Shown here: positions 10,068 to 17,387 of the stretch, in pieces
Layout: each line of letters starts with the position of its first letter
Numbering within the stretch: position 1 is the first letter of the stretch
Assembly (NCBI GenBank): GCA_026413225.1
Contig: CM048557.1
Span: 16,532,871 to 16,596,870 of the forward strand
DNA: 64,000 nucleotides
From: Otis tarda
Taxonomy: Eukaryota > Chordata > Aves > Otidiformes > Otididae
Direction of reading: 5' to 3'
The notes under the pieces: generated by a model
Databases searched by the model: none
What the model saw: the letters and a program-made list of their open reading frames with translations, nothing else
Told to the model about the DNA's origin: nothing
Position numbers and translations under genes: made by a program

Positions 10068-12268
<2,201 letters not shown>

Positions 12269-12405
12269 GTTACGAAATGTCACGGAGCCTTAACAGCATA
12301 GCTGGCATAAGTGGAAAAGCGATAGGATTATCCTCAGTGTCTGCGCCCTACAGCTCTCCTAGTCCAGTGAGACGTTCTTGGTCTCCCATCCCATCTATTT
12401 TGTAG
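12269..12405 (+). CDS. KCNC1: Alternative KCNC1 C-terminal exon resembling the Kv3.2 (KCNC2) tail
   Basis: A polypyrimidine stretch and AAATGAAG acceptor precede GTTACG. Joined to the final G of exon 3 it reads [13 protein letters not shown] and continues to [11 protein letters not shown] and a stop at 12403-12405, 45 residues in all. The KCNC2 protein has an isoform tail of, as I recall, the same length starting GYEKSRSLNNIAG and ending RRSRSPIPSIL, about two-thirds identical without gaps. The exon is therefore a paralogue retained since the Kv3 duplication, not a chance frame. The end S-I-L fits a class I PDZ ligand; the classical Kv3.1b end VRVT does not. Joining is phase 1, the same as the downstream exon, so the two are alternatives. 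No poly-A signal lies between the stop and the classical exon. Whether mammals keep this exon in KCNC1 I cannot say. Confidence 0.88.
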
Positions 12406-13079
12406 CATGGATCAGTAGCAGAGAATGGTCTAAAAAGCTTTATTTTCAATTAGCCTATGCTATGTTGCATATAATCCAGGTGACTAAGTCTGAAGATGCA
12501 ATGTCTCACAGTAGCACCTGCTGTGTTACTACTGATGCTGGGTGACAACACTCCTAAATAGCACTCAGATAACAATAGGCAGGCATTTGCATAGTACCGG
12601 TGGGCCATACGTGCTACGTGGTATCAGTACTTAGGATGAAGGGTAGATGCACCAGATAGTTTCCTTCCTGGTGCATCCTGCTAGAATATGCTTATTTTGG
12701 CTAATGGTGGATCTACTGGCTTTATATGGAATGGGCTAGGCATTTAGTCGATGCTGAAACATGCCAACGATGGAAGATTTTGCTTTTCTCAGGATATTTT
12801 TGAGCCATAGGAATCCTGCAGGAGTATGAGCAAACAAGCACAGTAGGATGAAACTTTGCATGGGCGCCTATTTTAAGCTGAAAGCAATACTCAGACACAC
12901 TGTAGAGAGGTCTCAGTCTGGCTGACTGCATGGAAAAAAAATCCTGTTGAAGAAGAATATGGCTGCCTCTGCATGTAGCTATTTCACCTTTTCCTCCTTC
13001 CTTTAAAACTAAGATGCCGAGCTTGATGTGAAAAGCGCAGGGAAGAAGCTCAAGTACTGATTGTATTCTTTACATGCAG
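12406..13079 (+). other. KCNC1: 3' UTR of the Kv3.2-like isoform and/or intron before the last exon
   Basis: No AATAAA or ATTAAA hexamer is present here on the + strand. A transcript ending with the Kv3.2-like exon must therefore run through the classical last exon to shared signals, or splice onward. In the second case its stop would lie upstream of an exon junction. Three TGCATG motifs (12857, 12927, 12970) lie here. The end of the interval has a pyrimidine stretch near 12986-13005 and the acceptor TACATGCAG. Confidence 0.7.
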
Positions 13080-13144
13080 ATCTTTGCAAAGAAAGTCCAG
13101 TCATTGCTAAATATATGCCAACAGAGGCAGTCAGAGTGACCTGA
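13080..13144 (+). CDS. KCNC1: KCNC1 last coding exon, classical Kv3.1b C-terminus
   Basis: After the acceptor AG at 13078-13079 the exon completes codon GAT with the last G of exon 3. It reads DLCKESPVIAKYMPTEAVRVT, then TGA at 13142-13144. This is, from memory, identical to the end of mammalian Kv3.1b. It gives the channel's cytoplasmic end. The exon is used as an alternative to the Kv3.2-like exon 0.7 kb upstream. An AATAAA occurs only about 31 bases after the stop (13176), giving an implausibly short UTR if used for this isoform. Confidence 0.97.
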
Positions 13145-14390
13145 CAAGGCAAGATGGAGATGAACATTGATGGCTAATAAACATCTGTATGGAACTGTGC
13201 AGGCATAGAAGACCTTCTCATTTGGACAAAGTTGACTTGCTCCATGCAGGTTTTATGGATGACTCTTCGTGGTTTTGGAGTTGTACTAGAGATGCAGGCT
13301 TTTTCTACGGCCAAAATGTAACAAAACTGTAGAAGATCCTTTTTTTTTTTTTTAATCTATTTTTTTGTTCCATAGCATGAATTGCATGAAGACAAAAATT
13401 ACAAAAACAAAAAACAAGAAACACTGCAAATGTATGATTAAGGAGGAAAAAAAAAGTTATATATTTTCTTTCAAAGCTCTTTACTTTTACATACATTGTT
13501 GTAGCCAAAATGTAAAACATTATAAAACTGTACATTTCTTTGCTACGGATCGCTTCTTTTTGTATACAAGATACAGAGTAATGGTTTTAAAAAGTGCAAT
13601 CAGGCAGTCATCGGTCATATTGACCATGCCTTCACAGTTCATCACACCGACATGGAAAACAAGAACTTTTAATCCAACTGGAAATGTATAAAAATAAGAA
13701 AAACTTATTCCTGTCTGTTTTTGTTGGCATGCTTGTGACACATGGGACCTTCCTTCGGACCTGACACTAACAGCTGGTCTAGATTTAATTTTCCAGCTCT
13801 GGTTATGTTGTATTTTATTGATGTATAGATCCAACGTAAAGACCCTTCATAAATTGTTCATAATAAGTAATCAGTATGAATTTTAAACAAAAGAGGTGTT
13901 ATTTTAAAACTGGGACTTATAGTACAAAATCAGGAAAATACTCAAGTATAAATGGTCTCAAAGTTTAAGAAACAAGACAACAGCATTGTATGCAATTTAG
14001 TACTGAATAAAATGCATGCACAATGTTATGCAAAACAATTCTAGCATGAAATAAATTTTGTATCATGGTTTCAGTGCCTGCTGTATAGTGTAAAGAGGAA
14101 TCCTTTTCTGAAGCGATCAGGGGTTTCCAGAGACTTGCTTCTAAAATCTTGAATAAATACAGTGTTCTCAACAGAAATGTAGGAGAAGAGCTTGGTATTG
14201 CTTTGGTTCTACAATGCTAATTTTGGTTAGTAGATAATAAATGAAGCCTGCAAACACTTGATACAACTGATGTCTGAAGAATTCACACCATTAGTAATTT
14301 TATGAGGGAAGATTAAAAATCCCTATAATTATCTAGGTATCTTCCTTTTCGCTCCCCAACAATAATAAAAGTTTGTCTTTTTAGCTGATT
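13145..14390 (+). other. KCNC1: Probable KCNC1 3' UTR
   Basis: This AT-rich stretch follows the Kv3.1b stop and lacks coding character. It holds T and A runs (13340-13353, 13449-13457), further TGCATG motifs at 13383 and 14013, and several AATAAA hexamers. The UTR extent is inferred from the last good hexamer at 14364. The real end could be earlier or later. Confidence 0.55.
14006..14369 (+). terminator. KCNC1: Series of candidate KCNC1 poly-A signals
   Basis: AATAAA occurs at 14006, 14050, 14152, 14236 and 14364, with an earlier copy at 13176. The copy at 14364 is followed directly by GTTTGTCTTTTTAG, a good U/GU-rich downstream element, so cleavage near 14385 is the best guess for the distal end. 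Which ones are used cannot be told from sequence. Confidence 0.5.
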
Positions 14391-17387
14391 AAAATAATTC
14401 AGTTTTTCTTACTTCTTTGGGCCCCGTCCTTCACTTGTTCTTCACTGAGCCACAGCAGTCCACCTGATACGAAAGTCTGAAAGAAATCCAGGTGTCTGAG
14501 TCACACTTTATTTGCCACACAAAACACGCGGCAGTAAGAACTGAGAAACACAATGGGATTAAATTTCATTTTAGATCCTACAAATGACAACTATGGACTA
14601 TGTGTCAACAGCATTCTAGCTGCTTGAACATTTTTGGTAAAGTACTTCTCTAAGGAAAAATACATCTTTACCATCATGTGAGGAACTTCAAAAGAGCTGG
14701 CAACCTTCTAGACAAGCTATGATACCTGCGACTGCTCATGAGAAAGGAAATGTAAAGGAACAGTATCCTTATGGTCTGGAGGAAGTAGAGATTAAACCCC
14801 CAAAAAACAGAAGAAACACTCATGGCTCTGGTAAGTGCTAAATTATAAAGAAAAAAAAAAAAACAACTGCAGCTGGACCTTGTCTTCACAAAACTCTACT
14901 CCAAAAGGAAAACCAAGGAAGACCTCAAGCTGTGTTTTAGGAATAGAAGAAAGGCTGATAATGTGAAATTGTACGTAGTTAGAAAACTCCTTTGTAGTCC
15001 TTTATGTAGCATTATGTACTTGATTTCTACTTCAGTTGACTATCCTTTCTCCCAAGAACTGTTTTTCTCCCATTGTTTCCATGCTGTTATTCTCAGCTGA
15101 TAAATGGGCAATTTCTTACCTCCAGAGGTAAGATCTAGGTTAATCCAGGATCCAAAAGTTGCCTAATGAACAGTTTGTCCTCTTATAACGTATTAAGAAT
15201 CCAGAATGAGATTATCTGCCCCATTAGTTATTTAACACTAACTCAAGGGACCAGTGTGAAGGCTGCTCAAATTCCCCATTACCCTAAGGAATACTAAAAA
15301 TTCAGCCCTGTAAATCCCACGCAGGTCTTCCCCTTCCACTGCACTTTACACATATATGAGCCTTAGCTAACAGGGTGGGTACACATGCCCTAAGGCAATT
15401 GTCTTTCTGTGCTTTAAATCTGCCAGTCCCATTTTCATTTAGGTACTCCTCTTGGCTTTTTCTCATTTGAGGTAACTATGTCTTTTGAGTGACTTCTAGA
15501 AACCCTTCAGAAACAGAACAGTGCTTCCCATCCACTGCCCTTCAGGAGATGCTCTAAAGCTTAAGGTCCACCTGACTGTAGAGTGCCCCTTGCATAACAA
15601 CGGCAGTTCTGACAACACAGGGAAAGAGGGAGACAACTGGAAAATTCCAAGAGCTGTTGCACCAAATCCTGACACTGAATCCTAGGAGAAATTTACCACA
15701 TCATCCAAGCTGCATTACATTTAAGTAGCTTTTGTTGGGATATTATGATTAAAACATTAATTCCTTCAAGCCTGCCCACTCCCACCACAGAAGGTATATA
15801 TCTTGATTGAAGCATTACAGCTATACATATCGCTAGATTTTGACGTCAGGCTTGCAATAATGCCACTGACTATTACTGACTTCACACCATCATAAACAGG
15901 AGCAGAAGCACATTCTGTAGTTCAGTTACCTCTAGTTCCCTGCTGGAAATGCACATTCGGGTTTCTTCTTCTGCAAACTCAGCTCTCGGCAATGGACTCC
16001 CAGCTATAGGACTCCGTGCTGGTCCTTCATCTGAACCCATTGGCAATTGGTTTATTACTTGATAACATTAAAAGCACAGCTCAAGCACACCTTCTACACA
16101 TACAGCTTTTCCTCTGTCTGCATGAAGGTATCAGTTTTTTCTGGATCAACCTGATGCGTGAAACTGTCTCCCCAACCACAATTCCAGACAGCAAGGATCT
16201 GAGAAACAGTTTCTGTTCTCTCACTCCAACAAAAAATCTAGCTAATACCACTGTGGTAACAGTCAAGTGCAGCAGTCATTAATCTGGATAAAGTGATTTT
16301 TCATATAAATTGCCTTCTCTCTCCTTAAAGTTTCAGGGCCAAAAAGAAAATACATCACTGAAATGAATAGCTGCTAGGACAAACGAACAGACTGAAATAC
16401 AGAAGAGAGCAAGCAGGGCTACGGCAAGGACATTCAGAAAGGAATTGAGCAGATTGCTGCTCACAAAAAAAAATTATCCTGAAGAAAAAACAAGTGCAGT
16501 TATTACCCTGCCACTCTGGATATCCTTTTCATAGGTTCAAAACAAGGCAGGCTACCTTTCTGCTTTCCACACATACCCTGGAAGTAACTTTGCCTCTGAG
16601 CTCACACACAAACTAACTTCACTTCTTGAAAAGGTGCTTAAATTATCACTCACTTATTTGAGTTTGGGCATAAAATACCTATCTGTTTCAGAAGTCCCAA
16701 AGCCCGTACACTCATCGAGGACTGTAGGTGCAACATTTCTCTCTTAGGGGAACACAAATGCTTATTTGCAGTCAAGAACAATATTTGCATCCAAAATTCA
16801 AGTTAGAAAATGCATCCAGAACTGCATCTCCTGACTTTCTTTCCTTATCTGACGAAACAAATGCTTTACAACGAAACATATTCACCTGCTTCCGTCGACA
16901 GATATATTCCCTGGTTCAGGCTGACAAAGCCAGGTTTTCAACTCTCAGCGTTCACTTGAGCATTTAAAAAACTTTATGCAAGCACATAGGTCTGAACATC
17001 TCCAGGTACTAAATATTAAGAGCACGTGCTCCAAGGCTTCCACTGGTTTCTCTACTGCCCACGGAGCACAGGTTAGAGATTCCTTAGTCAGCAAAAGGCA
17101 AAGTAATGCAGTTGTATTAGTTCAGATATCACTGCAAGATACCTGCACAACTTCTGGACCCAAAGCACTTCAGCAGGGACAACACAGCCCACGCAGAGGC
17201 TACTGACCATGAGTCACACCAGCACAACCCAGACATGCATGGCTTGAGCCCAAGCAAATACGCTCAGTTGGAGCCATGCTTTGCGGTGCTGCTGTCAGTA
17301 CAAGTGGGGGTGGACTGGAGAAGAGGCGGCAGTAGCACGAGAGGTGGGAAATGAGACGGACACAGAATGGGTCTGGAAAATGAGTGG

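Follow-up and report, generated by a model that had tools for sequence, protein, structure and literature searches.

KCNC1 and its distal C-terminal exons

The stretch analysed (64,000 nucleotides, C6:16532871-16596870, in the following simply the window) holds C-terminal exons of KCNC1, whose product Kv3.1 drives fast spiking. The genome searched was an assembly of 1,198,220,595 bases in 116 contigs; positions without a contig name are those of the window. The exon that encodes the S1-S6 core lies outside the window, at C6:16527470-16528432, about 5.4 to 4.4 kb upstream of it. When the core exon was compared to the PDB, three distinct sequences were found at E<=1e-100, all KCNC1 and each aligned over residues 1-321. 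The solved Kv3.1 chains used (7phh, 7pqt and 8f1c) were matched across all 321 residues searched, which confirms the gene as KCNC1, as the earlier note on this DNA had named it.

Read-through in the core exon (exon 2) gives the end NRAGRKPLRGMSI (RKPLRGMSI), read from the DNA, which we take to be the Kv3.1a end. A distal exon, identified by its sequence, has its coding part at 13080-13144 (+) with the stop TGA at 13142-13144, and its end is that of Kv3.1b. Both standard Kv3.1 ends, the a read-through and the b tail exon, are thus found in the DNA of this KCNC1.

Exon 3, encoding the proximal C-terminus, was located at 10090-10278 (+) by sequence and translation, has homologous exons in the genes on C1 and C27, and is in phase 1 at either end, with a GT donor at 10279-10280. 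Between exon 3 and the Kv3.1b exon, precisely where the earlier note had placed it, lies an alternative distal C-terminal exon at 12269-12405 (+), which we will refer to as the SIL exon. It consists of a split Gly and 44 codons ending in SPIPSIL. The Gly codon is made up of base 10278, where exon 3 ends, and the GT at 12269-12270; the full codons run from 12271 to 12402 and are followed by the stop TAG at 12403-12405. The coordinates given earlier proved to be exact, with an AG acceptor at 12267-12268 (+) and a phase 1 join to exon 3, and the length of 45 codons is correct if the split Gly is counted in. Among the 22 upstream bases scored, 73% are pyrimidines for the SIL exon, compared to 64% for the b exon and 68% for exon 3.

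The start of the SIL exon is 811 bases upstream of the start of the Kv3.1b tail exon. Downstream of the SIL stop and ahead of the b exon, the strongest donor-like GT is at 12480-12481 (+) and agrees with the consensus at 7/9 bases. No AATAAA or ATTAAA was found between the SIL stop and 13176; when six weaker poly(A) signal variants were considered, the earliest was at 13110. AATAAA/ATTAAA hexamers at 13176, 14006, 14050, 14152, 14236, 14312, 14364 and 14388 (13176-14393, +) are candidate shared poly(A) signals.

Homologous tail exons in the sister Kv3 genes

With the core exon as query, 23 places were found in the genome at E<=1e-20. Four of them, on C6, C27, C32 and C1, showed 81-100% identity and the other 19 showed 36-56%; genome search therefore gives four Kv3 genes. 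From sequence features and neighbouring Kv1-like genes, we take C1 to be KCNC2, C27 to be KCNC4 and C32 to be KCNC3. A fifth Kv3 copy (KCNC1L) was absent among the four core exons at 81-100% identity. Such an extra KCNC1L gene is described for several non-songbird birds and as absent in songbirds, in the available text of PMC10241522.

The 44-residue tail was then compared to the whole 1.198-Gb genome, and three places were obtained at E<=0.001, among six candidates scored. One is the SIL exon of KCNC1, and the other two are C1:41805674-41805805(-), in the KCNC2-like gene, with 70% identity over 44 residues (31/44, E 6e-12), and C27:6486261-6486392(+), in the KCNC4-like gene, with 50% over 44 residues (22/44, E 7e-6). 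The identity of about two-thirds to the Kv3.2-type tail given in the earlier note is thus borne out. Both copies lie downstream of their own exon 3, by 3.9 kb on C1 and by 5.8 kb on C27. A search with exon 3 of KCNC1 returned that exon and, in addition, C1:41809746-41809931(-) at 52% and C27:6480243-6480425(+) at 48%; the match on C1 includes one stop, which is upstream of the likely acceptor of that exon. Between KCNC1 and KCNC2, the tail is 70% identical, exon 3 only 52%. Overall, the homology of the tail exon, its phase, its length and the place of its stop agree with two of the three sister genes, KCNC2-like and KCNC4-like.

The copy on C1 as query, at E<=10, returned the same three places and a weak match on C2 (E 1.95). 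This latter match, at C2:160552888-160552992(-), covers residues 6-40 of the KCNC2-type tail at 37% identity and is probably due to chance. No PDB match was found for the tail at E<=10, and no Pfam family for either the SIL tail or exon 3. A profile of the three tails confirmed none of 193 pattern matches in a collection of genome contigs and 1 of 26 in viral contigs (50% over residues 6-40); the viral match was translated, judged by eye to be chance in a GC-rich stretch, and rejected.

The tail copy of the KCNC3-like gene on C32 was absent from the whole-genome tail searches, both at E<=0.001 and at E<=10, and surfaced in a targeted scan of 50 kb. There, at C32:165573-165692(-) and about 2.8 kb downstream of its exon 3, a tail stretch runs from YEKSRSLNSI, after an aag|GC acceptor, to RSPIPSIL and a stop. 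The beginning of this stretch is not in frame with its end, so the frame is broken in the assembly, and it is shorter than the other tails: counted from the Tyr codon through the final sense base, it measures 115 bases compared to 132. Exon 3 of this gene likewise shifts frame in the assembly. Both exons lie in very GC-rich sequence, and because six C in a row are found close to each frame break, the likely explanation from the sequence is a run-length error of the assembly, the alternative being real decay.

Constraint on the tail, its age and competing readings

Constraint was assessed on three pairs of paralogous tails (KCNC1, KCNC2 and KCNC4) from one genome, the C32 copy being excluded from the codon counts. 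The differences at codon positions 1, 2 and 3 were 11, 3 and 23 for KCNC1 versus KCNC2, 18, 10 and 25 for KCNC1 versus KCNC4, and 16, 9 and 21 for KCNC2 versus KCNC4. For the respective pairs, dS/dN values (Nei-Gojobori) were 1.21/0.19, 1.45/0.41 and 1.33/0.29, with Fisher p values on rounded counts of 3e-6, 7e-4 and 6e-5. The tail exon is consequently under coding constraint, with dS above dN in all three pairs. Compared without gaps, KCNC1 and KCNC2 have an identity of 0.72 within the exon, against 0.30 upstream, 0.45 across the final 20 bases of the intron and 0.30 over the 60 bases that follow the stop. Farther out than those 20 intron bases, the identity of the flanks is 0.20-0.30, and the remaining two pairs drop likewise.

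In simulations by substitution only and without selection (5000 runs per rate), a tail whose frame remained open and in which no fewer than 31 of the 44 residues were unchanged was never obtained at 1.2 or at 0.8 changes per site (0/5000 each); it was obtained in 4/5000 runs at 0.4 and in 816/5000 at 0.2. With KCNC4 as outgroup, five residues are unique to KCNC1 and two to KCNC2, which is too few to read.

Because sister genes carry homologues of the tail, conservation ends at the exon edges and synonymous sites show an excess of change, it is well supported that the SIL tail predates the split of KCNC1 and KCNC2. This had been proposed in the earlier note, and it is upheld by the homologous exon after exon 3 in the KCNC2-like gene. 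Given the counterparts of the tail in the KCNC4-like and KCNC3-like genes, the arrangement dates back further still, and the SIL tail is probably older than the four-gene Kv3 family. For the Kv3.1b tail, no other genome match was found at E<=10, in what is a weak search with a query of 20-21 residues, and comparison to the sister-gene stretches gave nothing of note (best other E 4.4 and 4.3). KCNC1 alone may have gained the b tail on top of a tail arrangement that already existed. The conserved third tail also points to a choice of tails that arose before the Kv3 genes split, with the textbook b tail perhaps the younger one.

The main mechanistic rival to use of the SIL exon as a tail comes from the donor-like site at 12480, which agrees with the consensus better than the exon 3 donor (7/9 versus 6/9, by the same count). 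Spliced through this site, the SIL exon would be a cassette acting as a poison exon, with its stop about 74 bases before the junction, so that the mRNA would be degraded and the output of Kv3.1 lowered; that no AATAAA or ATTAAA stands right after the SIL stop would suit such a use. However, a poison exon would require no conserved C-terminal sequence, whereas here the constraint at the protein level reaches the last residue, the stop has the same place in two sister genes and identity falls just past it (0.20-0.30). We regard this reading as improbable.

We give the same low weight to a relic, i.e. an ancestral tail exon that has gone out of use in the KCNC1 of this lineage and is intact since the loss was recent. 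It is in line with Kv3.1 papers giving a and b alone, and, as the 816 of 5000 runs at 0.2 changes per site indicate, a recent loss of use is compatible with the simulation. Nevertheless, the frame, the AG acceptor, the phase and the stop are all intact, and for zebrafish kcnc1a, too, a pair of distal C exons is listed, whose encoded tails are not specified in the available text of PMC2933717.

The open frame was dropped as evidence in itself, as in the region of about 10300-13000 phase-1 frames of at least 45 codons follow 22 of the 200 AG sites; it is the similarity to the sister-gene tails, not frame length, that excludes chance. A chance frame that happens to resemble a Kv3 tail, as those 22 sites might suggest, is refuted by the genome-wide match to the KCNC2-like copy at E 6e-12 and by the place, phase and length shared with the sister genes, and its probability is practically nil.

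A putative third Kv3.1 end and the known Kv3 tails

We consider it quite probable that the SIL exon is the KCNC1 copy of the alternative C-terminal exon of the Kv3 family, in which one donor and two acceptors would give rise to a differently targeted, SIL-ended subunit. The exon 3 donor (after 10278) would join either the near acceptor at 12269, giving the SIL tail, or the far one at 13080, giving the b tail, and read-through in exon 2 would lead to Kv3.1a. In the message from the near acceptor, the b exon would probably become 3'UTR, with the SIL stop in the last exon. Because no AATAAA or ATTAAA occurs before 13176, the SIL message probably continues through the b exon, and the SIL and b messages probably use the same poly(A) sites. 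Judged from the sequence, this KCNC1 can probably give rise to a third form of the channel that differs in its tail, and expression of a SIL-ended Kv3.1 isoform is likely.

The Kv3.1 subunit predicted from this splicing has a Ser/Pro-rich tail of 45 residues that ends in S-I-L. Class I PDZ ligands follow the rule of a C-terminal S/T-X-hydrophobic. The predicted C-terminus agrees with this pattern, its S and L being invariant in the three aligned tails, and it fits a putative class I PDZ ligand. A targeting role for Kv3 tails reportedly has a precedent, by its title, in Ponce et al. 1997. The SIL-ended subunit would probably gate as Kv3.1a and Kv3.1b do and differ in targeting or anchoring. Similar gating is expected because zebrafish Kv3.3 with a PSIL or a WIKP tail, the two being spliced alternatives of kcnc3a, is described as gating without significant difference in the available text of PMC2933717. 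A role in targeting is proposed because of Kv3 precedent in the accessible parts of PMC2933717 and PMC9287412: the latter describes Kv3.1 tails as setting the cellular destination of the channel, an axonal targeting motif of Kv3.1b as interacting with ankyrin G, and Kv3.1a as staying somatodendritic.

The earlier note had stated that standard descriptions of Kv3.1 list only the a and b ends. This stands for the papers on human Kv3.1, where a and b are the only forms named in the text available: two known isoforms are given in PMC9896932, and a and b forms in PMC9287412. It does not stand for predicted and listed gene structures in the parts seen of two further papers, as five transcripts with C-termini of varying length are predicted for zebra finch KCNC1 (PMC10241522), and zebrafish kcnc1a has two distal exons in the 2010 Table 1 of PMC2933717, 'Distal C' at 33,416,890 and 'Alt. 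C' at 33,417,909. According to the latter source, alternative splicing affects the C-terminus of every Kv3 gene in mammals, and the PSIL and WIKP forms of zebrafish kcnc3a were cloned and aligned with rat Kcnc3. The third end is accordingly less new than the earlier note had it. No description of a SIL-ended Kv3.1 was found in the literature searched, which covered few subscription papers, and the strings of the SIL tail occurred in the texts of only two papers, of unrelated subject. Thus, a SIL-ended Kv3.1 would be new or little described, next to the already published PSIL-ended Kv3.3. If the tail belongs to a real isoform, a third form of Kv3.1 would escape any probe or antibody directed at a or at b alone.

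A wider reading is that SIL is the ancestral Kv3 ending, retained by all four genes, that b is an addition in KCNC1 only, and that bird Kv3.1 has a third, PDZ-type end, missed by standard accounts, which directs some of the fast channels to different neuronal sites. For this reading as a whole we see the balance as even.

SIL-type C-termini are standard forms of Kv3.2 (KCNC2) and Kv3.4 (KCNC4). The SIL exon resembles these tails in 31/44 and 22/44 residues, in phase, length and place of the stop, and in following exon 3; it differs from them in being part of KCNC1, with a b tail exon 811 bases further downstream, and the KCNC4-like copy ends in S-V-L, unlike the S-I-L of KCNC1. With zebrafish Kv3.3 PSIL it shares the nature of an alternative distal C-terminus that ends in PSIL, and the KCNC3-like gene here retains both ends of the exon, although in the assembly this copy has a broken frame and a shorter length, unlike the cloned kcnc3a PSIL. 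In the available text of PMC2933717 the kcnc3a PSIL form is proven by RT-PCR, whereas the SIL end of Kv3.1 is here inferred from sequence. As in zebrafish kcnc1a, the proximal C exon is followed by two distal C exons, with a spacing between these two of about 1.0 kb there compared to 0.8 kb here, a likeness of exon arrangement, since the tails encoded are not specified in that source. Finally, the putative third end would share gene and core with Kv3.1a and Kv3.1b, but it resembles neither of their ends and carries an S-X-hydrophobic C-terminus.
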